Positions 20,687 to 53,716 of a stretch of DNA of 64,000 nt are shown here, one piece after another (the first letter of the stretch is position 1; every line of letters begins with the position of its first letter). Both the position numbers and the translations under genes were made by a program. The DNA is from Saxidomus purpurata (taxonomy: Eukaryota > Mollusca > Bivalvia > Venerida > Veneridae), in NCBI GenBank assembly GCA_022818135.1, contig JAFMSR010000010.1, positions 28,335,291 through 28,399,290 on the forward strand, in the 5' to 3' direction. Below the pieces are notes generated by a model that searched no databases, was not told where the DNA came from, and worked only from the letters and a program-made list of their open reading frames with translations.

Positions 20687-21101
20687 TTCTAAATCCAGCT
20701 GTAAATGGTTATGCAAATTACTGGCTATCCCTGTCTAAATCCAGCTATAAATGGTTATGTAAATTACTGGCGATCCCTTTCTAAATCCAGCTGTAAATTG
20801 TTATGTAAATTACTTGCTACCCCTGTCTAAATCCAGCTGTAAATGGTTATTCAAATTACTGGCTATCCCTGTCTAAATCCAGCTGTAAATGGTTATGTAA
20901 ATTACTTGCTATCCCTGTCTAAATTCAGCTGTAAATGGTTTTTCAAATTATTGGCTATCCCTGTCTAAATCCAGCTATAAATGGTTATGTAAATTACTTG
21001 CTATCCCTGTCTAAATCCAGCTGTGAATAGTTATGTAAATTACTTGCTATCCCTGTCTAAATCCAGCTGTAAATGGTTATGTAAATTACTTGCTATCCCT
21101 G
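20687..21101. repeat. 46-bp minisatellite, left part
   Basis: The unit starts 'tctaaatccagctgtaaatg' and ends 'cttgctatccctg'. Successive starts at 20688 and 20734 give the 46-bp period, about nine units. The array continues at 24176 after the inserted LTR element. Confidence 0.95.
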
Positions 21102-21316
21102 TGTTACATGTCAGTATTGGGGACATTAAGACATGAGACATGTAAATGTTCATCATTTTAATTTTGCCACAATTTTCCAGAAATCAATCATCGGCGCTCA
21201 TATAAAATCTCTTTTTCGTTACAATCAGTTTTTAATAGTTCCAAAATTTAACCGAACACTTTGCTTTCGCTCAATGAGTGCTACCAAGTGGGTCCCGGTA
21301 CCCACATTATACAACA
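21102..21316 (-). repeat. LTR (3' LTR of the minus-strand element)
   Basis: A 215-bp copy starting tgttacatg and ending tacaaca on the plus strand. It matches 23962-24175 almost base for base, indicating recent insertion. Confidence 0.92.
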
Positions 21317-24175: not shown

Positions 24176-24549
24176 CCTGTCTTAATCCAGCTGTAAATGG
24201 TTATGTAAATTACTTGCTATCCCTGTCTAAATCCAGCTGTAAATGGGTATTCAAATTACTAGCTATCCTTGTCTAAATCCAGCTATAAATGGTTATGTAA
24301 ATTACTTGCTTTTCCTGTCTAAATCCAGCTGTAAATGGTTCTGCAAATCACTGGCTATCCCTGTCTAAATCCAGCTATAAATGGCTATGTAAATTACTTG
24401 CTATCCCTGTCTAAATCGAGCTGGAAATAGTTATGTAAATTACTTGCTATCCCTGTCTAAATCCAGCTATAAATGGCTATGCAAATTACTGGCTATCCCT
24501 GTCTAAATCCAGCTATAAATGGTTATGTAAATTACTGGCTATCCCTGTC
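24176..24549. repeat. 46-bp minisatellite, right part
   Basis: Continuation of the array interrupted by the LTR element, about eight units of the same 46-bp period. It ends at 'tatccctgtctgacaag', shortly before the first recognised SULT-A exon. Confidence 0.93.
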
Positions 24550-24757
24550 TGACAAGTGATTGGTTCCATCATGAGCAACGTCACTCCACGAGACTGGGCC
24601 GTTCAGTTGAACAATATAAAACCGTATCGTATTTGAAAATTGGCGTTGGCGACATATGATTTCTGATATTTTGCTCTGGACACAACATTAACGTAATTAA
24701 CTTACACGCGGGTGCATGTCCCATTTATTTTTGATAGCCACTATTTTATGCTTTCAG

Positions 24758-27700: not shown

Positions 27701-28449
27701 GTCTTGTGCGTATCTGGCACTGTCATGTACATACATCATTAAACACTGCAAGTTTTAATCTAAAACTTTGCTGTAGTGTTCAGGTATATCAAACAAGTAA
27801 GTTAGATAACCCTTGACTTAATACATGTATCTTGCTACATACGGCTATCTTTTAAACTTTGAAAAAACAGATTCTTGTTTTGCCTTTTACTGACAAAAGC
27901 TTTGTTTTATTGGCAAGCCTGAGAAAAATCGAGCGTGCTGTCCTACTGACAACTATTGTTACTCACCTTACATAGTTATCTGTCACTGCTTATTTTCAGC
28001 ATTCAACACATTTTTATAGAATGCCTCAATACCAAAACGACATGCGCTCAATGTCAGCATGTTTTGGCTTGATTATGTTTTTCTGATTTATGGCCCTTTG
28101 ATTGTTGTATATTATGAAATATAAGTCATCAGTTTTAAGCAAAGCATGTTAACAGTAGTGAATTTATAGAATTATGTGAATTCAATTGCCGCACTGCGCA
28201 TAGGCAGCTTCGAGCTTGAGTAAGTAATAGGAATTTCCCGTCATGTCCGGAGAGGATTTTCAGAGTAATCAGAAGGTAAGCAGAAGTTTAATTGACTCAC
28301 AATATATCTGTCTTATTTATAAATGCATCTTTTCAGGTCAGGTTGGAGACTGGAAGAACCATTTTACTGTACATCAGAATGAAAAGTTTGACCAATGGCT
28401 GGAAGAAAGTTTAATAGATACAGAACTCAGTTTCAGATACACTCTCTGA
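24758..28449 (+). CDS. Cytosolic sulfotransferase SULT-A (first exon not found)
   Basis: Cytosolic sulfotransferases move a sulfonate group from PAPS to small hydroxyl or amine substrates. Exons: 24758-24870, 25332-25658, 26193-26293, 26859-27039, 28337-28449, phases consistent, about 278 aa, ending FRYTL at TGA. Family motifs: PAPS 5'-phosphosulfate loop TFPKCGTHW, catalytic-His region LNCHYPCK, 3'-phosphate motif [31 protein letters not shown], then [19 protein letters not shown], which carries both the RKGxxGDWK PAPS site and the KxxxTVxxxE dimer motif. Exon sizes match SULT-B and SULT-E. By analogy the missing 74-nt first exon should end in phase 2; it was not seen between 13.8 and 24.7 kb and may lie in the assembly gap. 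The loop has Cys where the other copies have Ser. Substrate cannot be inferred. Confidence 0.88.
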
Positions 28450-32405: not shown

Positions 32406-33973
32406 AAAGCGTGTTAAAACACGTTTTATTTTGTTACTATTGACACAAATGATGTAACTTTTATATATATGACCAGCGACGCGGGAAAATGGGCCTTCGG
32501 ACAAAATACTAGAAAACTAGCTTTCTTGCATATTTTGAACAAACAATATTTCAATATCAATATTGGAAAATTTCAGTTACCTGCGTCAAGTACATACAAA
32601 ACTACAACATTTTGAAAAAGTATACCTAAGGCGTCATTGTTCACTCTAAAAATGACGTCACATACCACACTTTGACGTCAAAATTCACTTCTATTTACAT
32701 GGGCAGTAAACTATTCCGGTAATCATTTCCTAACAGCATCATTTATTTTCGGTTGCAACATTATATACTCTTTCAATATATATCATATCTGGTGAACTAT
32801 TTTATGTCTTCTTTCCACGTTATGCCTTTTTTCATAGGGTATAGCCAAAATAAAAAAAAGAATCATTTCAAATCGCTGTTGCCATAGTAATGGTCTTGGA
32901 GGATTTTGAAACCAATAGTATGTTTTTGTTGAAAAAAAATGTGACTATCAGTTTTAAACATTGGTTTTGCATTTAAAGAGGGTGACAAAAATGTAAATTT
33001 TATGGGGTTTTTTATCAATTATTGTCGAATAATGTAACAAATGTCCGAAGGTACATTTTCGCGCGTCGACGGTCATATATAATTGATTTTATTAAAATCT
33101 TTTAAATAGAAATTGTATTTATTGAGTGTTGACGTGTTTATATTGTTTTAATAAAAACGCCAAAGAGGCAATACAGTAGTTCTAGTCATAAGTCAAAAGT
33201 ACGGCGTACAAAAGTCATAAGTCAAAAGTAAAAAAAACACCCGCAAGTCGAAACTCAAAAGTGGCCCTCCAAGGCTTCCATATGTATGCATTGCAACTCT
33301 GTCAAACATAGGATTTTAAAATTACATGGCCGCGTCTTTACCTTGAAGGTCAAGGTCACACTTAGACGCCAGACATTTTAGATTACTGCCTATATGCATA
33401 CTTTGTTATACATTAATTCAAGGGTTTAAACAAATTGGAACAAATGTCCAGCCCATGGAGATGAAGTATTTCCAAGCTCACCCGAGATGAAATCCCAGGG
33501 TCAGCCGATACTATAAACAATCTAAATCTAGAAGAAATCGAGATGTACCGGGTCCACACCTTGAAGGTCAATATCACAGAGTGTGAGACACTGCTTTGGG
33601 TGTATTCCTCACTTATGAGGGACAGCACTTATCAAAATTATCCTTCAATAAAAATTTATAATTTCCGTTACAAACAATAATATAAACTTGCTTCAGTGAC
33701 AGAAACAAATGTCGGAGCAGTATCAGTAAAAACACCTTTCTCGACAACTTTCCCCGGTAGCATCAAAACTCAGGTATGCAAAGCTTTTGAATGTATTCCT
33801 GTCATACAACACTATGTTGAAGACAACATTATTACTTTCAGCTTTATCCGTTTCTTGTAGGTCAGATGCCTTGAGTTTCATACCAAAACAAGATTTGAAG
33901 TTACACATAAGTAACGTTCGTAATCTGGAGATACGTGATGATGATATTTACCTTGCAACATATCCGAAAAGTG

Positions 33974-34830
33974 GTAACGTTTAAACTTGTTCATAATCCG
34001 AATAGCGGTAACGTATAACCTTGTTCACAATACTTTTCAACATATCCGGAAAGGTAGCGCATAGCCTTGTTCGCAATACCTTGCAACATGTAAGAAAAGT
34101 GGTAACGTTTTAACTTGTTCATTTTACCTTGCAACACATCCGGAAATGTAACGAAAACCATGTTCGTAACGCCTTGCAACATATCAGGAAAGTGATGAGC
34201 TGTAACCTAGTTAGTAATGTTTTGCATCATATCTGAAAAGTGGTAACATATAAGCTGTTCGTAATATTTTGCATCATATCTGGAAGCTGGGTCGCACTAA
34301 CTTGAGACAAATCCAAAATATGGTATCGCATTAGCATGTTCGTACTAACTTGAGACAAATCCAAAATGTGGTATCGCATTAGCATGTTTGCACTAGCTTA
34401 AGACATATCTAAAAAGTGGATACGTATAAGCTTGTCCGTAATACCTTGCAACAGACAACATGCAATATTTTGCGTATGCCTTGCAACATATACAAAATGT
34501 GGTAAGGTATAAAATTGTTCATAACACCTTGCAACCTCTCCGAAAATTGGAAACATATATGCTTGTTCGTAATACCTTGAATCATATCTAGAAATAGGTA
34601 ACATATATGCTTGAATCATATCCGAAAACTTGGTAACGCATAAGCTTGTTCATGATAACTTGTAACATATCCGAGGCTACTTAGCATCTTAGAAGTGTGT
34701 TCATCATAACATGCAACATATCAGAAAGGTTGCAACGCATACACAAACAAGCTTGTTCGTTATATCTTGCAACATATCAAGAAATTGGTAACATAAACAC
34801 AAACAAGCTTGTTGTCAATATCAGTATTTA
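33974..34830. repeat. Degenerate splice-junction-derived array, SULT-B intron 2
   Basis: Directly after SULT-B exon 2, diverged copies of 'ttgcaacatatccgaaaagtg' followed by 'gtaacgtttaaacttgttc' recur about 15 times at 40-70-bp spacing. The phrase is the end of exon 2 (coding ATYPKSG) plus its 5' splice site. The homogeneous version is in SULT-E intron 2. Confidence 0.85.
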
Positions 34831-36401
34831 GACTCACAGAAATTCTGTTAAAGTCTAAGAAGGAAAAGGCTTTTTGTTAAAATTCAACTAGAGGATATTT
34901 AATAATAAATACTGATGCTTATAAATGTAGCGGCATTCATCAATCAACAAATATAGGCATGTGTTAAAGACACCTTTTACGCTGTATGTGTCATTAAACA
35001 TGTCAACCTTTTTGTATTCACTTAATTTACATGGCCTACTTGTTTGTCTCCTAGCTAGCTGTGTTCTCCCGGCTTTTTACCGAACTAGCTGTGGTCTCCC
35101 GGCTTTTTACCGTTTCAGCCAAGGCCTAGCGATGCTCCGATTGTGTCGTATAATATAAATCAACACTGTTCACACTTCATAGGAAGAACTCTGTTTAGAC
35201 TTCAACTTTGATTTCCAATAAGTGGATCAGTGACTTTAGAAAATAGCAAAACTTGAGAGCATCCAATGTTGTACATTCTTAAGTTGTGTGGTGACACCAT
35301 TTCATCAGTATATTTGTAACTTTTTTATATGAAAGGTACTCACTGGGTATGGGAGATCCTAGTGATGTTAACACGCGGAAATGCAGAATATGAAACAAAA
35401 ACAAAGGAAGCTGCTTTTCTGGACTTTAAACCGCCTGACGTGGTGAATGATCTTCCGTCACCGCGGGTTCTGAACAGCCATTACCCGTGCAAATTATCAC
35501 GACTGGAATTTTCCAGAAACGAATAAAGATTGTCCATGTGCTGAGGAATCCAAAGGATGTATTCGTTTCATTTTATCACCACAATAAGAACTACGGCGGC
35601 TCCAATGCTACAACGAGTTTCCAGGAATTTCTACCAAGAATGACTGGGGAACTAGGTTTGTGTAAGTAAAGTAAATACATATACCGAACTGTAAACATTA
35701 CCTTGACAAAGTTAGCATCATTGAATATTTTGCGATGCTGAAGAAGCGGTTGTCAGTGGACAATGTCTCGCCCCATTTGATCACAGTTTTCCATTCAAAA
35801 ATCGGGTAGACTAAACTAAAGAGAGCATGTGTGAATGTATGTGCACATGCCTGTATGAGTGCGAGCGTTGTCGCTCTCAAATAAGGCATACGTTTGTTAT
35901 ACCGTACGCCTCGCGTCGAGCTACAATTTTTGTCTATTTCAAATTCATTTATTTCCCAAATATTTAAGATACGAGTGTTATGTAACTTGTTCTGACTAGC
36001 GAATTCTTACGTAGTGACTATTCGTGATGGTATTTTTCTTTTCTTCATATTCAGATCATTTTTATCCGTGGTTTCAATACGTGAAGGAATGGGAAAGATT
36101 TTCGAAGCAGCATCCAAAGCAAATACTAAATCTTTACTATGAAGATTTAAAAGAGGTAAGAATGGGTTGTATTCTGTTGTTGATTTTTTGTGTTGCTATC
36201 TGACTTTTTGAGAAAATGTTTCTTTCAAGTAGGTCGATGATGACGTAATAGGGCGTCAGTGATGGATATTTATATGATATCATAAGTCTAACAGTGGAGT
36301 GACAATCAGCTGAAAAGTGGCTTATTTAAGGAGTACGTGGTCACAAAAGTACAAGCAATGTTTTGTACTAAACTGTTTGCCGAGGTCTGTAGTATATGGA
36401 A

Positions 36402-36630
36402 CTGCCGGCATAATCTGCCAACGTATGGTGTGGACCTGTAAGTGTTGAAATTCAATTTGATGAACATTATAAACTAAATAACATTGATGCTATAACTTGA
36501 CATTATTAAATGAATTAAACAGCCACATCTGGCTATAAAATTTTTATTGAATGTGTAATTTATGGCGGCCATCTTGGGCGCCATCTTGGATTACCAGGTC
36601 CGCACCACGCGTTGGCAATTTATGCCAGCA
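36402..36630. mobile_element. MITE-like inverted repeat in SULT-B intron 4
   Basis: Left arm ggcataatctgccaacg continuing to tggacctg (36407-36438); right arm caggtccgcaccacgcgttg continuing to tatgcc (36595-36626). They are reverse complements with a few changes. The SULT-D copy of this intron keeps the left arm (about 45090-45120) but not the right. Confidence 0.55.
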
Positions 36631-37734
36631 CTTTCATGTACTACCGGCTTTTACGAACAATTTGGTTAAAAATTAGCTTGTTGTACTTTTGTTGCCACCC
36701 CTTTCCCCCAAAGCCACACATTAACGCCTTACTATAAACTCATAAAAGATAAAGAGTTTTTTTGTGAAAAGTGAGCATTCTTCTTTATTTCATTACATGT
36801 ACTTTGATTTGCAAACAGCGCTGAAATTAGGCTAATGTGATTACTGGACCCAGTCGTTCAAACTTTTATCGACGATTAACTTAACAGTCGGTTAACTCTA
36901 AGGGTTTTATTTCTACAGTTTGCACCTCTTCTTGACACAATTTTACATTCAACAGAGTGATGACTAAAAACTCGTGTTGCCCACCAAGAACTTTTTTCTT
37001 TCAATCAAAAGTTAATCGACGGTTTGTTTAAAGCCGCTTAAAGTTTCGAACGTCCAGATCCTGAATGTCAGAGCGGTCTTCCATTTTTTTAAAGTGTTGA
37101 CTTCAGAACATGTCAATGATTATTTTAAATCTGATTGCTTTCTACAGGATCCGGTCAGAGAGATTAAGAAAATCAACAAGTTCTTAGGTACAGAACGAAA
37201 CGATGCTCTCATCTCTGGGATTGCTGAAGCCTGCGAGTTTGAAAAGCTGAAAAGTGCAGATTCCAATATCAAAGTGCAAGATGATCTAGCCGACGACGAA
37301 TTTTCCCCAATATATAGAAAAGGTAAATCGCTTAGTGATTACCAAATGTCCTTTGTTTTTCTATAGAACCTTCGAAAGCAGTTAAATCAACAAGCATTTT
37401 TATACAATTTTTTGTAGTTGTTTCGAACGGTGCCGGCGATTAAAAGGTTTTAACTTACATTATGCAAAGATAGATGTGTGTATTCCACATCTGAAATTTA
37501 AATCACGTTAATTTATTGCATATATGCTTCGTTCGCCTATTAACCTCAGGGATGATCCATGCTCGAAATACAGGTATACTCCTGGGAAAGAAAAATAACG
37601 CCTGCGGTAATAATTTCTTCTTTTTTTTTACTTGGTTTATAAGGTCTGAACCGTGTGGCCCTGCGGGGGCGATTACTACCGATCCTATAAGAATCTTTTA
37701 CTGGTTACACGTGCAGATGGGAATATCTTGGTGA

Positions 37735-37792
37735 GGGTAACTGTTTTTGGCGGTATCGACACTCTGCCGTGTTACCGCCAAAACAGTTACCC
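37735..37792. repeat. 20-bp-stem hairpin in SULT-B intron 5
   Basis: Left arm 37735-37755 (gggtaactg...ggcggta) pairs with right arm 37773-37792 (taccgcca...cagttaccc), with one bulged T and a 17-nt loop. The right-arm phrase recurs at about 30490, so this is part of a dispersed element. Confidence 0.65.
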
Positions 37793-40056
37793 GAGAGCCG
37801 GATATTATTATCTGCAGGTGCAGCCAGTGATATATTATTTTTCTTGCATACCATTTTCTACTAAAAGTAGCAAAATAAATTAAGTTAATGACTTATATTT
37901 ACGCGCTATTTCATTGTAGTAATGTACGAATTTACACATTCATTCATAAAAGCAGTGCGTTCTGACGTAATTAAGTCGGCTTACACCTGGGGATGTAAGA
38001 TGAGATTTTCCAGCACTGGTAAAAACTGCAGATATCCCGATCTGGTGATATCCCGATCTGGTGTACAAAAATGCATTTCTCCCACGATGCATGCTGTCAG
38101 ATTTACTGTTTTAAAAGAATTGCTTTGGTAGGATGTGCCACCCTCTTAACTTCCAAAGGATTTTAATTGTGCGTGCCAAATGAAGGATAGAGCCGCGGCA
38201 AATTCTGCCTAGATAGCTTTCACATTGAAAGAGTGAATAGAGGTGAACAAGGTCTTTTTTGTTATAGTATGTTGTTTTTGTTTTTTACTAATGTTAAACA
38301 CTATTTTTGGTATATAAGATCGTAGATCTAAATTATCTGCTGACAATGCGTGTTAAATTAGCTTAATAGTTTGTATGGGTATATAATTAGTTATTTATTA
38401 GTATTTGGGTACCGGTAATTGTGGCTCTTTCTCCGATTTATAAATGACTAGTTTGATAATGGATGGCTAACTTGGCGTCTCTTCTAAATTCACAAACATT
38501 TTTGTAATTGTATTAGCAACCTATCTAAGATATCTTTTAATTTCAGGTCAAGTTGGAGACTGGAAAAATCATTTCACAGTCGCACAAAATGAAAAGCTTG
38601 ACAAATGGCTCGAAGAAAATTTAGTGGACACAGACCTAAAATTCAGATATAGTCTGTGAATACCTGATCAAACACCAGGGCATTACTTTTTGACCTACTC
38701 AAAAGTATCATAAAATGAACATTCATAGAAAAGGAAGAACAATTATACAGACATGATATTAAAACCGACAATAGATAAATCAACTTTTAGTATATGCAAT
38801 TCACGTACTACATGTATGTGTTTAAAATCGCAAGAGCACAATTATACATAGCTCTTACTTTACCAAGAAAAATGTCTTTCTTTGTTTGTACTAAGACAAT
38901 CCTTACTTTGCTTTTTAAATCGATAAGTACATGCTCGAAATATAGCGCAGTATTTCTAATGATGTAGCAAACAGTAAGAAGGCTTTCTCTGTGTGTTTAG
39001 ATTGTTTATAGACACGGCCGTATTGTTCCGACCGACCCTAGGATTTCTCATATGGTGAACTTGCCATGGCCCTAGTATGACTCCCATGCATACTGGTATC
39101 AACAAAATTTGAACATTTTGGGGAGTTTTATTTGACCTGACTGCAATACCCGGTCAATTTTGTCCAAATATAAGTATTGTTTAGCAAAATTGCGTAAAAT
39201 GCTAGTAGCCAAAAGAAAAGTGTGCGAGCTTGCAGACCAGACACGTGTTGCTATTGTACATTGGCTCTTGAACCATTTTGTCTGGTGTCTTCTTAGTTTA
39301 CTTGTAAAAAGACGGCCGAGTGATAAATGAATATTATGAAAATATACCAGTTGAAAAGTGCTTTCTGGCAACTCCTTTTCATGAAGAAAAACGACTTAAA
39401 CACGAAAGAAAAGGCAAATGTCAGCATTGTTTTAGAGTGAACATCATTATCTTATCAGTTTACTTGTCCATTCTTTTTCCTTGTAAAACTGCATCACGTG
39501 CACAGAAAACATGCTAATAACACCATCAGGATGGTATTCTGACATCGCGCAGTGATATTTCATTCTGTGGTCAATGTCTTAACCGCATCCTTAAATGTGG
39601 GTTTTTAGTCTAGTAAATGCACGATATGAACATCTAAAGTTGTATGCTTTATTGAAACGCTCGATATGTGAAGGATATGAGAAGGATATGTGAATAAAAT
39701 GAATGAATATGATTTCATATTCACAATATGATCATATAATAAGATCGCCTTACGTAATGATAATTAAGCGTTTTCGCCATAAATCATTATCACAAGTCTT
39801 GAAACCTTTGCTTCTGGTTAGTCTTGAATAATATCCCACAATGGCAGAATAATTAGCAAGAAGCAACTTTAAATGGTGGTATATGGTGGTTAACTAGTGA
39901 AAAATTCGCGCTGAAACTTATCTAAAGTAATTGTGGCCATTTCTCTGATTGGTAAATGACTGGTTGGATAATAGATTGCTAACTTGGCGTGTCTTCTAAA
40001 TGTACAAACTTTTTGGTTTGTATTTGCAACATATCTAAGATAGCCTTTAATTTCAG

Positions 40057-40106: not shown

Positions 40107-40751
40107 CAAGTCTTGAAAACCTTGCTTCTTGTCAGCCTTGAAAAGTATCACGTTATGGCAGAATAATTAGCAAGTAACAACCAAACATGGTGGTATGGTA
40201 GTTAACAAGTGAACATTTCGCGCATCATCAACAGAAAGATTCTCTTAAATACGGAAACGAATATACATGCATGCAACTTTTTGCTAGTTGCTAATTTCTT
40301 ATTATTCTGTCATTGTGCGATATATTATCTTTTCATGAAGCAATTTTTTTAGACTCGTGACAATAAAGCCTCAATAAAACGCCTAAATATATTTACTTTG
40401 CGCAATTTTACCATGAAGCGTCAATATGATGCATATTCAGTAATATTATTTAGTAATATTATTTGCATGTTTATTTCAAATATCGAGCGTCACAGAAAAG
40501 CACCAGTCTTCAGCTGTTGTACAGAATGCAAACTTCAGGATGCTGTTCTGACATCGAACAATGCTTTCTCAGACGTCAATGTCTGAACATTATTGCGTAA
40601 TGTCTTAACAGATTCCCGACATGTGCTTTTTTACCGTCGTAAATGCACAATATTAACGCCTGAAGTTTGATGTGTTTCTGAAATGCTAGATATAGTCAAA
40701 TATACATGCGAATAAAATTACTGAATATGCACAATATTTACGTCTTATGAT

Positions 40752-41096
40752 TTAAAGGTCCACTACTAAGCGAAAATGAAGTGACAGTTATTTCAATGGC
40801 AAGTACATTACCTTATGCAAGACACTAAATACTGAATACTGTCAGGTTAAAATTTACAGAAAGTGTTTGGAACACGAAGAAAAGTATGTGTATTATGTTG
40901 AAATCTCAGTGATTCGACAAAATGACTACCCAGGTCTTTTTAACTTTCTTCATAATGCATAGAAAAATAATTGTACATGTACTGTGGTTTATTTAGAATT
41001 TCTACATACCAACTTTCATTTTTTATTAAAAATAACTTATTTCTGTGTTTTTAAAGTATATTTGAATTTTCGCTTTCCTTAGTATTGGACCTTTAA
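40752..41096. mobile_element. MITE with TTAA ends
   Basis: The left end ttaaaggtccactactaag and right end cttagtattggacctttaa are inverted repeats, each finishing in TTAA. Length is about 345 bp with no ORF. TTAA is the piggyBac target duplication, so a piggyBac-type MITE is plausible (inference). A lone matching end (ttaaaggtccaatactaag) lies at 47667. Confidence 0.7.
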
Positions 41097-41796
41097 TAAC
41101 ATCGTCCATATGTAAAAATATTAAACTTTTCGCCAGGAATAATTGTCACAAGTCTTGAACACATTGTTTCATGGCAGAATAGTATCGCACCATAACAGAA
41201 TAAGTCACAACTAGCAAATGGTGGCGTATATGCGTTTCCGTGATCCGTGCTGACATGATGCTATAAACAGACATCTGTAAGTATAAGAGATATTTCTTAC
41301 AGTAAGGAGATATCTTTTTTGACACAAGGATATCTCTCAGCGTAAAAGAGATATCTCTATCAAAACAAACTACATGTATGTCTTTTTGAAATTACGGAGA
41401 TACCTGTCTCTTTTGACATAAATAGTAAAACGGCTTGTGATACAAACTGGTTATTCAGTCAACAGATAAAATATATGGAAAACCAGGTCGAGATGCATTT
41501 ACTTTAAAAGATTTTAGAACGTACAACTGATATGAAATGTTTGTTTATTATTTAAGAAAGAATTGAAATAAAGTGATACGACATACCAGGGGGTATTAAA
41601 TAGAACATTATTTGGTGTTTTATAAAGATATGAAGTACCAAGTCCGTATCCAGTTAGAATTATCAGTCAAATTTAAGTTAGATCTACTCTATATTTAGTA
41701 TCAGTTGGTAAACAGATATAACGACATTCAGACATTCGAGAAACTGGAGAACGAGAAAGGATTTGGAAAAAGCAACTAGGGTTGTATGCCTACGTC

Positions 41797-43204
41797 ATGT
41801 ATAGAATATCAATAGAATAACCCGATGGGAATAAGTCGGAACTTATTCATGCAGATGGCATTACGTACACGTAAGTTGTCAGATTATGTACATACAAGTT
41901 TCATTATTTTCTTTATACATGTACATTGTGCTTCTTAAAGTGCTATTTTCTAAGAATAAATAACTGTTACAAACAATGATGTATACACATGACTTCAGTA
42001 CCATAATAAATAATATTTTGCTTTTCAAAAACGAAAGTAGGTTTTCCAGTTATCAAATATCTTTTTCAGAAGTACCCCAGAAAGAGGCTGTAAATAGGTT
42101 GTACATGAATATGCATGCCTTTTATAATTATAGTTTAAAAAACCTTACTTCCAATGATGTGCAACGTATATCTCTGACTGTTATCAACATGCAGAAAAGC
42201 GAAAGTATGACAAAAAGACCACCCAGGTCAATCTAAAGAAGTAGTAAAAAACATTCACTCATTTTTCTGCAGAGGTATTTCAAACACTCGAAATATGGCT
42301 ATTGTAAAGTTTTAGAAGCCAGTTTCAAACTGTATTTCCCTGTTACAATTCCAGAAAATTCAATTTGGCCTTAGTAATGAAACTAAGCATTCGTACGAGG
42401 AATATAAACACTTCTTTTCAGTTAAAAAATCCTCTCTAAAAATAGACAAATAAGCAGGTTAAACGTACTGGCTAAATCAGAATCAGAAAGGGTGTTCGAA
42501 ATACGTTGCAACATATCCGAAAAGTGGTAACGCCTAAACTTATTTGTAATACATTGCAACATATCCGGAAAGTGGTAACGTTTAAGCTTGCCTTCTAGGG
42601 AGATTATAATGGTCAACATGTATCCAATAATGTTGTGTTGTTGACTCTCGTATTCATGTTATAGTACGAAAACATGTCCGATAAACATTCCTGTACATTC
42701 TTAAGGTGTGTGGGGATACCATTTCCTCATCAGTATGTTTGTAACTTTTTATACTAAAGGTACTCATTGGGTATGGGAGATCCTAGTGATGTTAACACGG
42801 GGAAATGCAGAATATGAAACAAAAACAAAGGAAGCTGCTTTTCTAGACTTTAGACCACCTGACGTGGTGAAAGACCTTCCATCACCGCGAGTATTGAACT
42901 GCCATTAAGTAGTTTCTTGAAACCGGTGCCTGTTTATTAGCTTATTCCATATTGCCACTCTCTCTTCCGAGGTAAATCTATCTGACGTGAGTCTTGAGTG
43001 CGATAATGAGTAAGTTGTAAGAACTTGTTTCGCAATCGAGATTAAAAAGATTAGTATAAATTATAGGACAAACAACTGGTTTTAATTTCAGGTCAAGTTG
43101 GAGACTGGAAAAATTATTTTACAGTCGCACAAAATGAGATGCTTGACAAATGGCTCGAAGAAAATTTAGTGGACACAGACCTTAAATTCAGATATAGACT
43201 GTGA
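41797..43204 (+). pseudogene. Sulfotransferase pseudogene SULT-C
   Basis: Surviving pieces: exon 1 41797-41870 with an in-frame TAA at 41818-41820 (SULT-E has TTA there); no exon 2; a 5' half of exon 3, 42760-42906; and a full last exon 43092-43204. Exon 3 breaks after LNCH and is joined to the tail of a tRNA-derived SINE (about 42930-43065) that in SULT-E lies in intron 5. One deletion therefore removed the rest of exon 3 plus exons 4 and 5. Two splice-junction repeat units remain at 42500-42590. Non-functional. Confidence 0.92.
42930..43065 (+). mobile_element. 3' tail of a tRNA-derived SINE
   Basis: It matches the tail of the SINE at 51768-52090 (shared 'taagaacttgtttcgcaatc' followed by gagattaaa). 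The tRNA-like head is missing because of the SULT-C deletion. Confidence 0.75.
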
Positions 43205-44101
43205 ATACCTGATGAAACATGACGAATCCTTGATCAAGACATTCATATTTCTATGGAACATATTCAATCACGTAAATATTTACATAAAATGTGCATTCAT
43301 AGAAAAGGAAGTACATACAAATATCATCTTAAAACCGACAGAGGGATAAAGCAACCTCCAGTTAACGCAATTCTGTGCTTGTTGTAATCTTTATAGGTTA
43401 GAGAAACCTTTCTACCACTACGCAAAGAAGTCTTAATCTGAATAGTTGACATTGTTGTCAGAATGAGAGATCATTGCACAATGTCAGAACAGCAGCACTG
43501 AAGTGCGCGTTATTACACCACGAACGATATTTAGGCCTGAAGACTGGAATTTTCTGCGACATAAACATGCGAATAATATTCACTGAATAATGCACAATAT
43601 TCACGCTTTATGATTCAATAATATTACCCAATGTAAAGATATTAAAACATTTTAATATTAGACTCACAGAAATTCTGTCTAAGAAGGAAAACGCTTTTTG
43701 TTAAAATTCAACTTCAAGTCGAAGGGGATATTTAATAATAAATACTGATGCTTATAAACGTAATGGTATTATCAAGAAACAAATATATAGGCATGTGTTA
43801 AAGACACCTTTTACGCTCATTAAAACACGTTCACCTTTTTGTATTCACTTGATTTACATGGCCTACTGGTTTGTCTCCCAGCTAGTTGTGTTTTCCGGCT
43901 TTCCACCGTTTAAGTCAAGGTCGAGCGATGCTCCGATTGTGTCGTATAATATAGATCAACACTGTTCACACATCATAGGAATAACTCTGTTTAGACTTCA
44001 ACTTAGAGTTCCAACAAGTGTATCAGTGACTTTCGAAAAATAGGAAAACATGAGAGCATGATACCATTTCATCAGTATGTTTATAACATTTTATACTAAA
44101 A

Positions 44102-45912
44102 GTACTCACTGGACATGGGAGATCCTAGTGATGTTAACATGGGGAAATGCAGAATATGGAACAAAAACAAAGGAAGCTGCTTTTCTAGACTTTAAACCAG
44201 CTGACGTGGTGAAAGATCTTCCGTCACCGCGGGTTCTGAACTGCCATTACCCGTGCAAGTTGTCACCGACTGGAATTTTCCAGAAACAAATAAAGATTGT
44301 CCATGTGCTGAGGAATACAAAGGATGTATTCGTTTCATTTTATCGCCACAATAAGAACTGCTACAACTACTTTCCAGGAATATCTACCAAGAATGACTGG
44401 GGAACTCGGTCTGTGTAAGTAAAATGGAAACATAACGAACTGATAACGTTACCCTGAGAAAGTTAGCATCATTGAATAATTTCCGGTGCTGAAGAAGCGG
44501 TTGCTAGTAGACAATGTCTCGCCCTATCTGATCACATTTTCCATTCCAAAATCGGGTAGACTAAACTAAAGAGAGCATGTGTGTGTGTATGTGTGCACGC
44601 CTGTATGAGTGCGAGCGTTGTTGCTCTCAAATAAGGCATACGTTTGTTATACCGTACGCCTCGCGCCGAGCTACAATTTTGTCCATCTTAATTTTTTTTT
44701 TTTCAAATATGTAAGATACGAGTGTAACGTAACTTGTTCTGACCAGCGAATTTTTACGTAGTGACTATTCGTGATGGTTTTTTTCTTCACATTCACATCA
44801 TTTTTATCCGTGGTATCAATACCTAAAGGAATGGGAGAGATTTTCAAAGCAGCATCCAAAGCAAATACTAAATCTTTACTATGTTTGAAAGAGGTAAGAA
44901 TGGGTTGTATTCTGCAGTTGGTTTTTGTTGTTGTTTTGCTCTCTCTTTCTTTTTAAGAAAATGTTTCTTTCAAGTATGTCAGTGCTAACGTCATAGGGTG
45001 TCCGTGATGGATATTTAATGTAATATCATAAGTCTAACAGCGGAGTGACAATCAGCTGAAAAGTGGCTTATCTTATCTGGAACTGTCGGCATAAGCTGCC
45101 AACGCTAGGTGTGGACCTGTCAGTGTTGTAATTCAATTCTATGTACATTATGAACTGAATAAAATTAATTCAATAACTTGACATTATGTTAATAAATGAA
45201 ACAGTCACATCCGGCCATAACTTTTCATTGAATGTGTAGTTTCATGTACTACAGGCTTTCGCGAACAAATTGGTTAATACTATAGCTTGTTGTACTTGTG
45301 TTGCCACCCCTTCCCCCCAAAACCACATTTTGTCGCCCTATTATAAAGTCATAAAAGACAAGTGTTTTTTCTATGAAAAGTGAGCACTCTTCGTTATTTT
45401 ATTACTTTTATTTGCAAAAAGCGCTGAAATTAGGCGAATGTGATTACTGGACCAAGTCGGTCCAAACTTTTATCGACGATTAACCAAACAGTCGGTTAAA
45501 CTTTAAGGGTTTTATTTCTACAGTTGGAACCTTTTCTTTAATTAATTTGACATTCAACAGAGTGATGACTAAATACTCGTGTTGTCCACCAAGAATTTGT
45601 TCTTACAATCAGAAGTTAATCAACGGTTGTTTAAAAGCCGCTTAAAGTTTCGAACGTCCAGATCCCAAATGTCAGAGCGGTCTTCCATTTTCTTTAATTG
45701 TTGACTTTAGAACATGTATTATTTGAAATCTGACTGCTTTATACAGGATCTGGTCAATCAACACGTTTTTAGGTACATCAAGAAACGATGCTCTAATCTT
45801 TGAGATGCTGAAGCCTGCGAGTTTGAAAAGCTGAAAAGTGCAGATTCTAATATCAAAGTGCACGATGATCTAGCAAAAGATGACGGCAAATTTTCCGCAA
45901 TATACAGAAAAG
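44102..45912 (+). pseudogene. Sulfotransferase pseudogene SULT-D
   Basis: Exon 3 at 44102-44414 follows a destroyed acceptor (AA instead of AG at 44100-44101) and has a 14-bp deletion near 44360. Exon 4 at 44797-44893 also has a lost acceptor (AC instead of AG at 44795-44796) and lacks 4 nt. Exon 5 at 45747-45912 has lost about 12-18 nt near its start and has further changes. Exons 1, 2 and 6 were not found. Flanking intron sequence (43650-44090 and 44420-46230) closely follows SULT-B introns, so SULT-D is a decayed duplicate of a SULT-B-like gene. Confidence 0.92.
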
Positions 45913-46232
45913 GTTATAATTGCTAAAGTGATTACCAAAATTTCCGTTTGTTTTTCTATTGAACCTTTGAAAGCAGTTAAATCAACAAGCATTTATATAT
46001 GTAGTTGTTTCGAACGGTTCCGGCGAGTCAGGAGTGTCGTTTTGCGGCGTAGATGATTCATGCTCGTCTTGGGCAAGAAAAATAACGCCGTATGTAAATG
46101 GGTAGCGTTTTTCTGTTTATAAGGTCTGAACCTTGTAATTCTACGGGGGCGACTTATGCCGACCATATCATTTCTCCCACGATGCTTGTTGTTAAATTTA
46201 CTGTCTTAAAGAATTTTTTGGTAGGAGGTGCA

Positions 46233-46975
46233 ATTCTGAAAAGTAGAAATGAGAAAGATATGTGCTAGATGGATTCCCCTTCTGTTGACAGATGAACAGA
46301 AAAAGGCACGCGTGCAATGCGCGAAAATGTTGCTTAAGCAGTTTCCAAATTACAATGCACGGTCTTTGGCAAATGTCGGCACTGGTGACGAGATATGGGT
46401 TCACTTTTTTGAGCCCAAACGAAAGGTTCAGAACAAAATATGGGCAACAAAGTCTGGCAAAAGACCATGCATTGCAAAGCGGACCATGAGTGTCAAGAAG
46501 GTAATGTATGCCATATTCTTCACAATCAGGGTCCTACCATTCAGGTTGCTGTACCTAAAGGCAAATATGTAAATGCGAAGTTTGACATGACTAAGTTCTT
46601 CGAAAACTGAAGAAATATTTCAAAAATCAAAGACCTGCAACTGGTTTGGCCAATGTCAGATTGCTACGTAACAATGCGTCATCGCACAAGGCGTCTATTG
46701 TACAAGACTTTCTGAAGCAGGAAAAGGTTGTTGTGCTCCCTCACCCTCCGTATTCGCCTGACCTTGCCCCGTGTGACTTCTTTTTGTTCCCAAGGCTCAA
46801 AAAATACTTTTCTGGTCGAAAATTTGTCCAGCGCAAACACCTCGGTTCTGCAATATTCCACTGTCTTCATAGTATACCTAGAAAAGACTATGAAAATGCC
46901 TTCAAGGATTGGATAAGAAGACTGAAACCTTGCATATCTGTTGGAAAAGAATACTTCGAGGGGACAAAATAAAAT
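46233..46975 (+). pseudogene. mariner-family transposase remnant
   Basis: The Tc1/mariner transposase C-terminal half is recognisable. ARWIPLLLTDEQKKARV (family WVPHxL region) is at about 46270; GDEIWVHFFEP holds the first catalytic Asp; LLRNNASSH stands where the second Asp is expected (Asp replaced by Asn); YSPDLAPCDFFLFPRLK holds the third. Two frameshifts lie between about 46520 and 46620. The N-terminal DNA-binding part is absent. It interrupts sequence collinear with SULT-B intron 5 (compare about 38130), so it inserted in the SULT-D copy. It cannot be active. Confidence 0.93.
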
Positions 46976-47388
46976 TTTCATTGAAATATATCAAGGATAC
47001 ATTTTTATGTGCCTAGATGCATTCGTATTTAAACATTCCTCGTACAAATTTGTTATTCAGTCACCAGATAAAGATATAGAAAACAAGGTCGAGATGCATT
47101 TACTTAAAACGATTTCAGAACGTACAACTGATATGAAATGAGTGTTTATCATTTAAGAAAGAATTGAAAGTTTTAAAGTGATACGACATACCAGAGGGTA
47201 TTAAATAAAACATTATTAGGTATTTATAAAGATATGAAGTACCAAGTCCGTATCCAGTTATCAGTAGAGATATTTACACGGTCCAAATTTAAGTTAGATC
47301 TACTCTATATTTAGTATCAGTTGGTAAATAAATATAACGACATTCAGACATTCGAGAAACTTGAGAACGAGAGTTGTATGCCTACGTC

Positions 47389-50300
47389 ATGCATAGAATA
47401 ACAATAGAATTACCCGATGGGAACAAGTCGGAACTTATTCATGCAGATGGTATTACGTACACGTAAGTTGTCAAATTATGTAGATAAAAGTTTCATTATT
47501 TTCTTTATACATTGTACTTTTAAAAGTGTCATTTACTATGAATAAATAACTATTACAAAAAATGATGTAAACACATGACTTCAGTGCCATAGGCAGACTA
47601 GAAGAGCATTAATATATAGCAAAATAACTGCATAATTTAAACAAATTTATGTTGTGTGCCGATGAATTAAAGGTCCAATACTAAGACCAGATCGAATTGT
47701 TTTCTTTTAAATCAGGAATTGTAGCGGGCGTCTTCTCAGAAGGAAAATATGACATACTGCATTGCTTGTGACCATGTTGAGTTTCACAAAAGAATTGCAT
47801 GTAATAGATTATATTTTGAATTTTCAAAAACGAAAGTAGGTTTTATAGTTTTCAAATATCTTTGTAATTTTCCAGATTACTCACAGCTAGAGCCTGTAAA
47901 TAGGTTCTATATTAATAAGCATGCCTATTTTAATTACATTTGAAATAATTACACCTCCAATGATATGCAACGTATATTTTTGACTGATTACAACATGCAA
48001 TAAAGCGAATGTAGGACAAAAAAAACACCCAGGTCAATCTAAGGAAATACAAAAACATTCTCTCGTTTTTCTGCAGCAGTATTTCAAACTGGGAAATACT
48101 CCTGGGCTATTGTAAAGTAAAGTTTTAGAAGCAAGTTTCAAACTGTATTTCCCTGTTACAATTCCAGAAAATTCAATTTGGTCTTAGTAATGGAACTTTT
48201 AAGTATTCTTACGACTTGTACAAGGAATATAAACACTTCTTTTCAGTTTGATAAAAATCACTCTCTCAAAAATAATCAAATAAGCAGGTTAAACGTACTG
48301 GCAAAATCAGAATAAAATTTTGAATCGTCATACCGGTCGCTGATCACATTCCCACCATCTTATTTATGGGCGAATATTATCAAACAATGCAGGTTTTGGG
48401 TGCTTTTCATACGAAAGATAATGTTGAAGACAGCAATTTAAATTTCAGCTTTGTCTGTGTTTATCTTGCAGATCGGGTACATTGAGTATGATACCAAAAC
48501 AAGATTTGAAGTTACACATAAATGACGTTCGTAATTTGAACATACGTGGGGATGACATTTACCTTGCAACATATCCGAAAAGTGGTAACGTATAAACTTG
48601 TTCGATTACGTCTTGCAACACATTTGGAAATGTAAACGTTAAAAGGTGCTCGTAAAACGTTGCAACATTATCCTTAAAGTGGTAACGCTGAGACTTATTT
48701 GTAATACATTGTAACATATCCGGAAAGTGGTAACGTTTAAGCTTGTTTTTAATACATGGAAACATATCCGGAAAGTGGTAACGTTCATGCTTGTTTGTAA
48801 TACATTGCAACATATCCGGAAAGTTGTGACGTTTTTTTTTTTTTTATTTTGTTTTTTTTTTGAGGCCCCGTTTGGGTAAACCCCGTTTATTGTCCCCGTC
48901 AGCGGTTAAATAGAGGTCGGGGATCCACCTCTGTTAACCTTACAATTTTTCAAAAAAGGCATAGTATAAATGTTACAGTATAAATGTTACAAAATTGTTA
49001 CATTTACATATAATTAAGAAGCATTAGAATAATAGTTTTGGTTATACCCTTAGCTATAAACTATTTCATTCATCTGAGGAGAATAAACAATTTAACAGGA
49101 CCATACTTGTAAGTTGTGACGTTTATGCTTGTTTGTAATACATTGTAACATATCCGGAAAGTTGTAACGTTTAAGCTTGTTTGTAATACATTGCAACATA
49201 TCCGGAAAGTGATAACGTTTATGCTTGTTTGTAATACATTGCAACATATCCGGAAAGCTGTAACGTTTAAGCTTGTTTGTAATACATTGCAACATATCCG
49301 GAAAGTGATAACGTTTATGCTTGTTTGTAATACATTGCAACATATCCGGAAAGTGATAACGTTCATGCTTGTTTGTAATACATTGCAACATATCCGGAAA
49401 GTGATAACGTTCAAGCTTGTTTGTAATACATTGCAACATATCCGGAAAGTGATAACGTTCAAGCTTGTTTGTAATACATTGCAACATATCCGGAAAGTGA
49501 TAACGTTTAAGCTTGTTTTTAATACATTGCAACATATCCGGAAAGTGGTAACGTTTATGCTTGTTGTAATACATTGCAACATATCCGGAAAGTGATAACG
49601 TTCAAGCTTGTTTGTAATACATTGCAACATATCCGGAAAGTTGTAACGTTTAAGCTTGTTTGTAAAACATTGCAACATATCCGGAAAGTGATAACGTTTA
49701 AGCTTGTTTGTAATACATTGCAACATATCCGGAAAGTGATAACGTTTATGCTTGTTTGTAATACATTGCAACATATCCGGAAAGTTGTAACGTTTAAGCT
49801 TGTTTGTAATACATTGCAACATATCCGGAAAGTGATAACGTTTAAGCTTGTTTGTAATACATTGCAACATATCCGGAAAGTGGTAACGTTTATGCTTGTT
49901 GTAATACATTGCAACATATCCGGAAAGTTGTAACGTTTAAGCTTGTTTGTAATACATTGCAACATATCCGGAAAGTGGTAACGTTTAAGCTTGTTTGTAA
50001 TACATTGCAACATATCCGGAAAGTGATAACGTTTAAGCTAGTTCGTAATACCTTGCCTTCTAGGGAGATTTTAATGGTCAACCTGTTTCCCATAAAGTTG
50101 TGTCTTAAGGTGTGTGGGGATACCATTTCCTCACCAGTATATTAAATTTTGTAACTTTTTATACTAAAGGTACTCACTGGGTATGGGAGATCCTAGTGAT
50201 GTTAACACGGGGAAATGCAGAATATGAAACAAAAACAAAGGAAGCAGCTTTTCTAGACTTTAAACCACCTGACGTGATGAATGATCTTCCGTCACCGCGG

Positions 50301-53300
50301 GTTCTGAACTGCCATTACCCGTGCAAGTTGTCACCGACTGGAATTTTCCAGAAACGAATAAAGATTGTCCATGTGCTGAGGAATCCAAAGGATGTATTCG
50401 TTTCATTTTATCACCATCATAAGAACTTCGGCGGCTCTCACGATACAAATAGTTTCCAGGAATACCTACCAAGAATGACTGGGGAACGCGGTCTATGTAA
50501 GTAAAATGAATGTATGTGTCCCCATCGATAACGTCCTTTTGAGGAAATTATCATCATCGAATATTTTCTGGTTGTCGGTGGACAATGTCTACCCGTTAAT
50601 TATTATTTCCATTTGATTACAGTTTCCCATTTGAAAAATGACGATCGGGTAGAAAACTATAGTGTGCTTTGATGTATGTGCGTTCGTGCGTGCATGCGTA
50701 TTGTGCATGGTGCTCTACAACGAGGCCTATTTTTGTTATACCTTCTCCTGCCGAGCTACAAACTTTGTCTCTTTTAAATTTCAATTTTTTCCAAATATTT
50801 AAGATACTAGTTGTAGGTTGTTCTGACCGACGAATTCATATATACGTATATAGTATTCACGTGCGATATTTCTTTTTTCTTCATATTCAGATCATTTTTA
50901 TCCGTGGTATCAATATGTGAAGGAATGGGAGAGATTTTCAAAGCAGCATCCAGAGCAAATACTAAATCTTTATTATGAAGATTTAAAAGAGGTAAGAATG
51001 GGTTGTATCATGTTGTTTGTTATGTTTTTTGCGCTCTTCATTAAGCTATAGTCCTACTTCTTCCCATATGAAATGCCAGGATACCAAACCGTTTATGTCT
51101 GTAAAGGTTGACTTTAGAACATCTGGCTGGTTTTTTTTACAGGATCCGGTCAGAGAGATTAAGAAGATCAACAAGTTCTTAGGCACAGAAAGAAGCGATG
51201 ATCTTATGATGGAGATAGCTGAAGCCTGTGAGTTTGAAAAGTTGAAAAATGCAGATTCTAATATCAAAGTGCAAGAGGATCTTACAAAAGTCGACGACAA
51301 ACCATCCCCAATGTATAGAAAAGGTAAATCGGTTAGTATGGAAACGCATTTACGCCACCATCTGCTAGTTGCTACTTGCTAGTTGTTCTGGTATATGCCA
51401 TGAAGCAATCGTTTTAGACTCGTGACAAAAATTATTTTCTTTAACGCTGGGTATTCAAAATAAACATGCGAATGAAATTCCTGAATATGCAAAATATTAA
51501 CGATTATCAATAATTGTAATGATGACAAAGCGTTTTCGACATAAGTTTGTCATAAGTATTTAAAACATTGCATCATGTCAGCTGATAGAATAATTAGCAA
51601 ATGGTGGCGTATCTTTGTGATTACCAAAATGTCCGTTTGGTTTTCTATAGAACTTTCAAAAGCAATCAAATCAAAAAGCATTTGTATATGTAATTATTTC
51701 GGAACAGCTCCGACTTCAAGGTGTTTAACCACGTTTATTTATTGCATATATGTTTCTTTCGCCTGTTAATCTCAGTGGCCTAGTGGTTCCAGTGCTACTG
51801 TGCCGCTTTGCTGCATCGACCCCTAGACTAGCTACATGTTTATCCTTGCAGAGCCGACTTGGTGCAGTGGCAGCGCGTTCGTCTCGGGTCCGGAAGGTCC
51901 CGGGTTCGAGTCCCAACACTGACCAAGTAGTGTTAGTGTCCTTAGGCAAGACACATGTTGTTCTACATTATCTCTCTCTCTCCCTCTTCAAGGTAAATCC
52001 CATCTGGAGTGAGTCTCAAAAAGCGATTAACGTATGCTGTAAGAACTTGTTTCGCAATCGAGATTAAATGAATTAGTAAAAATCATCTTTAGGCAGGACA
52101 AACAAAAATGTGCATATGTCCATCCGATTGTAAATGAGTACATGTACCAGTAATTGTGGCTCTTTCTCCGATTGATACATAACTGGTTGGATAATGAATG
52201 GATAACTTGGCGCCTCGTCTAAATCCACCGACCAAAAAGGGTTAAGCAAAATGCAGTAAGCAACACGATATTAGCAAAAAGCAATGCAATCAGCAATTAC
52301 CGGCCAAAAAGCATTTAGCAAAACGCAGCAAAAAGCAATCAGCAAAGGCAGTTTGCAAAAAGTAATTAGCAAAAAGCATTTTGCAAAAAGTAATTAGCAA
52401 AAAGCTAATTACCAATTAGCAAAAAGCTAATTACCAATTAGCAAAACTTGGAATTACCAAGTAGCATACCAAAACTCATTTAGATATAAATATACCACGT
52501 TCATATATCAGCAACATATATATATGGAAGGCCGGTGGGTCATGCTAACTGCTAAATGCTTTTTGCTAATTGGAAGGCCGATGGGTCATGCTAATTGCTA
52601 AATGCTTTTGCTAATTGCTTTTTACTAAATGTTTTTTCGTTCGTGGATCATGTTAATTGCTAACTGCTTTTTGCTTACTGCTTTTAACTAAATGCGTTTT
52701 GTCGGTTATTGCTAATTGCCTGTTGCTGGTTGCTTTTTGCAAAATGCTTTTTGCTAGTTGCTTTTTGTTAATTGCTATTTGCTTCTTGCAACATTGATTT
52801 TTGCTAATTGCGTTTTGCAATTTGCTAATTGTTTTTGCTAATTGCTTTTTACTAAATGTTTTTGCTAATTGCTTTTTGCTAAATGCTAATTGCCTTTAGC
52901 TGATTTTTTTAATGCAAAATGCTTTTTGTTAAATGCTTTTGCTTATTGTGTTTTGCTTTTTGACCTTAAGAAAAGCATGACAATACAATATGTTTATTGT
53001 GCAAAAGGCATTTGGCAAATAGCAATTAGCATTTAGCAATCAAAATTTAGCAAAAAGCAGTTACCAATTAACATGATCCACCAGCCAAAAAGCATATAGC
53101 AAAAAGCAATTAGCAATTATCGGTAAAAAAACATTTAGCAAAAAGCAATTATAGGTAAAAAAGCATTTAACAAAAAGCAATTAGGTAAAAAAGCATTTAG
53201 CAAAAAGCAATTAACAATTAACAATATCCACCGATCAAAAAGCAATTAGCAAAAAGCAGTTACCAAAAAGCATTTAGCAAAACGCAGTTAGGAAAAAGGA

Positions 53301-53716
53301 ATCAGCAAAAGGTAGTTTGCAAAAAGCAATTAGCAATAAAGCATTTTGCAAAACGCAGTTAGGAAAAAACCCATATGCAAAAAGAAATTAAAGCAATTAC
53401 CGGCCAAAAAGCAGTTAGCAAAAAGCAATAAGCAAAAATCAGTTAACAATTTACATGATCCATCGGCCAACAAGCATTTAGCAAAAGGCAATTAGCAAAA
53501 AGTCGTTACCAAGTAGCGTGCCAAAAATCATTTAGCAACAAGCAATTAGTAAAAAGCATGACCCACCGGCCTTCCATATATCTAAGATTTCTTTTAATTT
53601 CAGGTCAAGTTGGAGACTGGAAAAATTATTTCACAGTCGCACAAAATGAAAAGCTTGACAAATGGCTCGAAGAAAATTTAGTGGACACAGACCTAAAATT
53701 CAGATATAGCTTGTGA
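47389..53716 (+). CDS. Cytosolic sulfotransferase SULT-E, complete, six exons
   Basis: PAPS-dependent sulfonation enzyme of the cytosol. Exons: 47389-47462 (MHRITIELPDGNKSELIHAD), 48472-48584, 50170-50496, 50891-50991, 51143-51323, 53604-53716; 909 nt, 302 aa plus TGA, all phases agreeing. Motifs in order: PAPS loop ATYPKSGTHW, split by intron 2 after the first base of the Gly codon; [11 protein letters not shown] with the catalytic His; 3'-phosphate motif [56 protein letters not shown] with PAPS and KxxxTVxxxE dimer signatures; end FRYSL. Length is normal for the family (about 295). Intron 2 is filled by the 48-bp splice-junction minisatellite. Intron 5 carries a SINE and a 1.06-kb palindrome ending about 24 bp before the last exon. 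It is the only locus of the five with every exon found and no lesion. Confidence 0.95.
48585..48834. repeat. Splice-junction-derived repeat, proximal older units
   Basis: About five diverged units follow the true donor of SULT-E exon 2 (GTAACG at 48585). Each contains a version of caacatatccggaaagtggt. They grade into the clean array after the retroinsertion. Confidence 0.9.
48835..49110 (-). mobile_element. Poly(A) retroinsertion with 14-bp target duplication
   Basis: aagttgtgacgttt occurs at 48821-48834 and again at 49111-49124, bracketing 276 bp. The plus strand starts with a T-rich run, so on the minus strand the insert ends in an A-rich tail about 24 nt after AATAAA. This is the hallmark of LINE-machinery retroposition: a 5'-truncated LINE, a SINE or a retrocopied 3' UTR. 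No coding sequence was recognised. Confidence 0.9.
49111..50060. repeat. 48-bp minisatellite made from the SULT exon 2/intron 2 junction
   Basis: About 19 units of 48 bp (two or three are 47). The unit starts caacatatccggaaagtg, then [a/g]taacgtttaagcttg, then tttgtaatacattg. Its first part is the coding end of SULT exon 2 (ATYPKSG) and the middle is the 5' splice site. By eye about 11 units read gtgataacg, losing the GT, and about 8 keep GT. The period is a multiple of three, so long open frames on both strands are artefacts. The array lies wholly in SULT-E intron 2. Confidence 0.95.
51768..52090 (+). mobile_element. tRNA-derived SINE in SULT-E intron 5
   Basis: A-box-like tggtgcagtgg at about 51859 and B-box-like gggttcgagtcccaa at about 51902 are followed by a body with a ctctctctccctct run and 'taagaacttgtttcgcaatc'. 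A second A-box-like tggcctagtgg at 51776 hints at a composite head. The tail copy in SULT-C shows the SINE predates that deletion. Confidence 0.75.
52225..52490. repeat. gcaaaaagcaattagc repeat block
   Basis: Irregular tandem words of gcaaaaagcaattagc in SULT-E intron 5, just outside the left tip of the palindrome at 52521-53580. They have the same composition as its right arm. Confidence 0.85.
52521..53580. repeat. 1.06-kb palindrome with inverted tips
   Basis: Tips: tatatggaaggccggtgggt then catgct at 52521-52546, and agcatgacccaccggccttc then catata at 53555-53580, exact inverted copies over about 26 bp. The left arm is built of tgctttttgctaattgc words, the right arm of gcaaaaagcaattagca words, meeting near 52975. 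Internal markers are also mirrored (gtggatcatgttaattg near 52636; caattaacatgatccac near 53068). It forms a long imperfect hairpin and may be an inverted-repeat transposon. Confidence 0.8.

Follow-up and report, generated by a model that had tools for sequence, protein, structure and literature searches.

A minisatellite copied from the exon 2/intron 2 junction of a sulfotransferase gene in the clam Saxidomus purpurata

The second intron of a sulfotransferase (SULT) gene in the bivalve Saxidomus purpurata contains a minisatellite whose 48-bp unit resembles the end of the gene's own exon 2 together with the splice donor that follows it. The arrangement raises the questions of where the repeat came from, in which direction the resemblance arose, and whether the copies have any part in splicing. 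The locus was analysed within a stretch of 64,000 nucleotides (the window; contig JAFMSR010000010.1, positions 28,335,291 to 28,399,290), to which coordinates refer unless a contig or locus is named.

Several cytosolic SULT genes lie clustered in the window, all on the plus strand. An outgroup paralog, gene 1 (exons 2-6, 24759-28446), has an intron 2 of about 460 bp that begins with the strong donor GTAAGT and lacks an array. It is followed by SULT-D (exon 1 at 30989; exons 2-6, 33862-38656), by pseudogene F (exon 1, at 41797, contains an in-frame stop; 42506-43201 comprises an array remnant, exon 6 and part of exon 3), by a broken copy (44104-45914) and by the host gene, SULT-E (47389-53716). 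Exon 1 of SULT-E (47389-47462, start codon to donor) was placed by tblastn with Mercenaria SULT N-termini and by the frame of the joined exons 1-6, and exon 2 (48472-48584), which ends in the PAPS-loop codons ATYPKSG, by tblastn and a frame check; intron 2 (48585-50169, 1585 bp), exon 3 (50170-50496) and exons 4, 5 and 6 (50891-50991, 51143-51323 and 53604-53716) follow. The gene is intact, in that its six exons join into a single frame of 302 codons in which the only stop is the terminal one. Exons 2-6 match the Pfam family PF00685 (Sulfotransfer_1; E 2.7e-60), and comparison with aryl sulfotransferase 1cjm (E 3.5e-48) identifies a SULT1-like protein with the PAPS-loop YPKSGT; the closest named relatives, among the best 120 of 289 matches, are proteins of Mercenaria (74% identity) and Ruditapes (69%). 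Relative to SULT-E, exon 3 of SULT-D (35336-35660) carries a 1-base frameshift, and SULT-D may therefore be a recent pseudogene, or the frameshift an assembly error.

Other repetitive sequence is present in the same region. Upstream of SULT-E, at 46240-46972, lie pieces of a transposase frame of mariner-like appearance, one part of which scores 26.3 bits against DDE_3 (cut-off 28.6). The last intron of SULT-E contains a long run (52245-53558) of degenerate 14-bp repeats (AGCAAAAAGCAATT and relatives, in either orientation), and a 46-bp minisatellite unit occurs both at 20688-21102 and at 24176-24550, about 3 kb apart; the best matches of these 46-bp units in the window are one another, so that no exon origin is seen for them.

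Alignment of all units to the junction resolves the array in SULT-E into 24 units of about 48 bp behind a unit zero, which is the authentic exon 2/intron 2 junction itself (48560-48608; 25 exonic and 23 intronic bases, donor GTG|GTAACG). Exon 2 ends at 48584, and the donor GT occupies 48585-48586. The four units adjoining the exon (48609-48800) are diverged, the fifth (48801-49138) is split, and units 6-24 (49139-50048) form a homogeneous block of 19, within which the mean pairwise difference is 0.049, compared with 0.26 among units 1-4. The fifth unit is interrupted by a retroposon-like insert (48835-49124; 290 bp including one copy of its target-site duplication) that starts with poly-T and is flanked by the 14-bp duplication AAGTTGTGACGTTT at 48821-48834 and 49111-49124. 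Tandem Repeats Finder (TRF) reports the 48-bp period over 48560-48834 (5.7 copies, 74% matches) and 49119-50056 (19.6 copies, 94%), and a 28-base core pattern of the unit is found 26 times in the window when up to 3 mismatches are allowed, and not at all in 100 shuffles. The array was first noted in a sequence-only reading, and the present analysis confirms it with some corrections: the position given there as its start, 48571, falls within exon 2, intron 2 beginning only at 48585, and 276 bp of the stretch (48835-49110) belong to the insert rather than to the array. Related arrays are also found at 33.97-34.8 kb, where the copies are old, and at 42.5 kb, where two units are present.

Rfam gives no match at gathering score within the window, and three units fold no better than shuffled sequence (z -0.78). 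A minus-strand open frame of 288 amino acids that crosses the array was rejected as a gene, long open frames over the array being a consequence of the fact that the 48-bp unit has no stop in that frame.

The related arrays establish the direction of the resemblance. In SULT-D (33949-34792), unit zero is followed by 18 diverged units, some of them partial, and the consensus of these units and the reconstructed junction agree in 47 of 48 bases (25/25 exonic and 22/23 intronic). The younger sequence in SULT-E is less close: the consensus of the 19-unit block matches the junction at 42/48 positions, and the homogeneous unit matches the raw SULT-E junction at 39/48 without gaps. Furthermore, the SULT-D units (15 of the 18 were used) differ on average by 0.20 from the SULT-E junction and by 0.22 from that of SULT-D, compared with 0.31 among themselves, the pattern to be expected if each unit decayed on its own from a founder resembling the junction. 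The near-identity of the SULT-D consensus to the junction means that the junction founded the array, the junction coming first and the repeat after. The array was thus amplified from the exon 2/intron 2 junction, which supports the earlier claim that the unit copies this boundary and that the true junction serves as unit zero. The alternative, in which an unrelated satellite was inserted in the intron and came to resemble the exon by chance or by conversion, is extremely improbable: we found nothing in its favour, and against it stand the 47/48 agreement in SULT-D and the behaviour of the SULT-E unit elsewhere, since the best match to that unit in the window outside the three arrays reaches only 28/48, well short of the junction, and its genome matches, at least 12 in number, are confined to this SULT cluster and a near-identical copy of it. 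A better-matching satellite, or one dispersed away from SULT genes, was accordingly not found in these searches.

The paralogs bear on the age of the founding event. Gene 1 ends its exon 2 in related codons and shares the PAPS-loop intron, and has no array. Over the first 165 compared bases of exon 3, SULT-D and SULT-E differ at 4 of 25 fourfold sites, and gene 1 and SULT-E at 15 of 24. The 48-bp period is common to SULT-D, SULT-E and pseudogene F, which favours a single origin before SULT-D and SULT-E separated. In pseudogene F, exon 2 is lost, and two units remain (42506-42590), backed by the same sequence as lies behind the array of SULT-E; the sequences behind the SULT-D and SULT-E arrays are unlike each other, which leaves two independent amplifications with an equal period as a less likely course. 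One duplication before the split would be the simplest origin, a single founding event and its date being read from this comparison of paralogs.

Copy number has also changed since then. Among the at least 12 matches to the unit in the genome (1.13 Gb, 4232 contigs), nine lie in the window, in the arrays of SULT-D, pseudogene F and SULT-E, and three on a second contig, C6, two of them in one array and one at a remnant like that of pseudogene F. These three belong to a 13.5-kb piece (C6:24948875-24962411), placed between runs of N on another scaffold, which is 95-98% identical to 40608-51028 of the window except for an extra segment of 4.3 kb; identity is 98% over 7.0 kb, and 95% and 97% on either side of the array. 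The array on C6 has six units; it has its last unit and the first half of its first unit in common with SULT-E, and the retroposon-like insert is missing from it. Copy number therefore stands at 24 in SULT-E, 6 in its near-identical copy, 2 in pseudogene F and 18, decayed, in SULT-D. The placement of the C6 piece on another scaffold between N runs makes it an allele or a recent duplicate: the first is the more probable, the piece then representing the other haplotype, likely on a misplaced contig, and the second is possible.

Whether the copies could be used in splicing was assessed from their donors, their reading frame and their potential acceptors. In SULT-E the exact donor 9-mer GTG|GTAACG is retained in 6 of the 24 units; the GT is lost in 11, the base preceding it in 6, and the donor is shifted in 1. 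The C6 copy has the exact donor in three of its six units. With an assumed U1 sequence, the best duplex predicted near the SULT-E donor reaches -6.4 kcal/mol at the authentic site; units with the exact donor give -5.0 to -5.3, and the remaining units scored give -1.6 to -2.4. The donor of gene 1 is predicted at -10.5 kcal/mol, so that the authentic donor of SULT-E is itself weak. In SULT-D, three units (unit 12 at -8.5, units 2 and 14 at -6.2 and -6.4) are predicted to pair better than the authentic donor (-5.3). As to the suggestion that the units supply decoy donors, six units retain the exact 9-mer, with predicted pairing close to that of the authentic site, and may conceivably be used; 11 have no GT and 7 are otherwise changed.

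The further suggestion of 48-nt, frame-preserving mini-exons was rejected. Exon 2 read onward into the intron gives SGNV and then a stop, still inside unit zero, and a stop in the exon-2-like frame is present in 21 of the 23 unsplit units, the exceptions being those at 49527 and 49862. Between 48591 and 50056 there are 56 AG dinucleotides, and the three that are preceded by at least 9 pyrimidines in 12 bases, the criterion applied for a plausible acceptor, all lie in the insert; no unit contains one. Given the stop after SGNV and the lack of a pyrimidine-led AG in the units, neither frame-preserving mini-exons nor useful extensions of exon 2 are available.

Two accounts would nevertheless give the copies a part in the life of the gene. 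According to one, U1 sometimes picks a downstream unit, which would extend exon 2 by about n x 48 nt with a stop after SGNV, so that nonsense-mediated decay would lower SULT output and copy number would tune the effect. The weak authentic donor, the retention of the exact 9-mer in a quarter of the SULT-E units, the immediate stop in the extended exon and the difference of 24 versus 6 units between two near-identical copies all speak for such a switch; however, the donor is lost or changed in 18 of the 24 units, the reverse of what a maintained switch would need, and the related repeats of lancelets, discussed below, are said to leave regular splicing undisturbed (PMC3087553, PMC3902484). We regard this account as very improbable. 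According to the other, selection disarms the decoys, units with dead donors having been favoured while the array grew in an intact gene. When the 48 columns of the 19-unit block are ranked by variability, the first donor base leads with a minor count of 8, and the last exon base comes third with 5; ranks two and four (6 and 4) fall to columns deeper in the intronic part. The chance that both junction bases fall among the four columns with a minor count of at least 4 is 0.005, for a test chosen after the data had been seen. The frameshifted SULT-D, moreover, keeps the GT in 10 of its 15 usable units. Against this account, both dead-donor variants also occur in the six-unit copy, six exact donors persist in SULT-E, and the unit variants represent a few mutations spread by copying, which means that the counts are not independent. 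Disarming by selection thus seems unlikely, with somewhat more in its favour than the switch; the variability of the donor bases in SULT-E versus the retention of GT in SULT-D is a pointer to purging, a lead and not a result.

A survey of other SULT genes bears on how such arrays start. In a Pfam search of the genome, sulfotransferase matches were scored for 149 of 377 candidates, and 30 were cut out as loci. This revealed a second junction-derived array, on the acceptor side of another SULT gene (L026:1915-2121; contig C7:20495834-20496040), in which a 43-bp unit comprising an acceptor ending in TTGCAG and the start of exon 4 is present five times in tandem, the last being the real exon 4. 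The frame continues only from this last acceptor, the four earlier ones leading to stops, and the stretch has no other match in the genome. With the donor-side array of SULT-E, both types of boundary are represented.

It might be supposed that splice junctions themselves favour tandem duplication, co-transcriptional DNA damage being one conceivable route, and that such arrays arise preferentially there. In favour of this, a single genome has two independent cases among its SULT genes, at a donor and at an acceptor respectively, and lancelets have similar ones. Tandem arrays of other kinds abound in the SULT loci of this genome, with 35 in 42 loci (248,799 bases; merged TRF arrays), and among 282 approximate exon edges located by tblastn, only 2 of the 35 arrays span an edge, compared with 8.9 expected at random (sd 2.1), a count of 2 or fewer arising in 1 of 2000 placements. 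This is a depletion, although selection against exonic arrays also lowers the count, and nothing in it points to a junction-seeking mechanism; it is consistent with a genome in which minisatellites are abundant, are selected against within exons and have in a few cases begun at an edge without damage to it. The count omits the C6 copy, the overlapping locus L046 and loci without exon matches, and retains the overlapping pairs L015/L056, L016/L053 and L021/L047; the decayed SULT-D array, which TRF splits, is not scored as spanning, SULT-E enters as two arrays, and the tally of junction-derived arrays rests on SULT genes only. Self-matches of at least 37/40 were found for 12 of 188 exon edges versus 9 of 269 random 40-mers from the same loci, and because random 40-mers also self-match strongly, there is no clear excess at exon edges. 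We consider promotion by junctions very improbable.

Several further candidates came out of the survey. Near-perfect edge self-matches in L045 and L047 were rejected because they looked like whole-exon duplicates within the locus, and a 68-bp array (L016 and L053, several blocks) and a 42-bp array of 12 copies (L054:1115-1623) because they lie away from any exon found. Weaker edge self-matches are present in L050 (31/40) and L046 (30/40).

Compared with known systems, the closest parallel is the class of lancelet minisatellites termed 'mirages', which lie over exon-intron boundaries in Adh3 and globin genes (PMC3087553), with PGBD5 and troponin C added in PMC3902484. In these cases, as in SULT-E, the unit spans the boundary and the true boundary forms one end of the cluster (Adh3, the globins BflGb6 and BflGb9, troponin C, PGBD5), inner units are homogenised and end units distinct, and both donor-side and acceptor-side cases occur, as in the clam SULT genes. 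PMC3087553 gives unit lengths of 10-72 bp for Adh3 and 150-160 bp for globins, a range that includes the 48 and 43 bp of the clam; it describes mirages as apparently not interfering with regular splicing and splice signals as kept in many but not all repeats, as they are in SULT-E, reports somatic length instability for the Adh3 mirage, and proposes mirages as raw material for new introns. Mirage lengths differ between lancelet haplotypes, to which the 24 versus 6 units of SULT-E correspond if the second copy is an allele rather than a recent duplicate. SULT-E differs in that its host is a bivalve and not a cephalochordate, in having 24 units where BflGb6 has 3-6, and in the decayed array of its paralog, which points to an origin before the gene duplication. 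Internal tandem repeats of human segmental duplications are also minisatellites that differ from paralog to paralog, and some of them lie at exon-intron boundaries (PMC2812944); unlike these, which lengthen exons or are proposed to form new introns, the SULT-E copies lie wholly in an old intron and contain stops. Intron gain through tandem duplication of AG|GT segments (PMC4974935, PMC2891723) reportedly likewise starts from a tandemly duplicated segment with splice signals, but SULT-E has gained no intron, the PAPS-loop intron being shared with gene 1. The arrangement is thus unusual, as first supposed, but not unprecedented, given the lancelet mirages (PMC3087553). No mirage outside cephalochordates was found in the open-licence literature, among the matches listed.

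Taken together, these observations are best explained by regarding the SULT-E array as a mirage-type minisatellite, quite likely one that arose by a chance tandem duplication, changed by unequal exchange and is removed with its intron. In the ancestor of SULT-D and SULT-E, a 48-bp segment made up of 25 bases from the end of exon 2 and 23 from the start of intron 2 would have been duplicated in tandem; as the copies came to lie on the intron side, the authentic junction would have been preserved as unit zero. Copy number would then have been altered by slippage and unequal exchange. The array would leave with intron 2, the first donor, which adjoins the body of the exon, being the one used, and the copies would be tolerated, most of them being poor donors or none at all. 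From these features we infer normal splicing and the absence of a function. Probably the array arose as a side effect of DNA copying that the gene tolerates and does no work of its own; functionally it is probably ordinary. New here are the clam host, the second case and the aged array, from which it is clear that the junction gave rise to the repeat. A broader reading, in which mirages recur at splice junctions of minisatellite-rich animals, on both sides, as slowly decaying fossils of junctions whose copies in live genes are purged of working donors as the array expands, is tentative and somewhat doubtful.

A mollusc thus has a type of repeat that we found reported only from lancelets. One gene family provides two cases, on the donor side in one and on the acceptor side in the other, and one of the arrays looks old enough to be common to two paralogs. 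Arrays of one founder that are aged, young or almost lost can be used to test whether such copies ever become used, and the same set can test how a gene keeps to the right splice site among near-identical ones.
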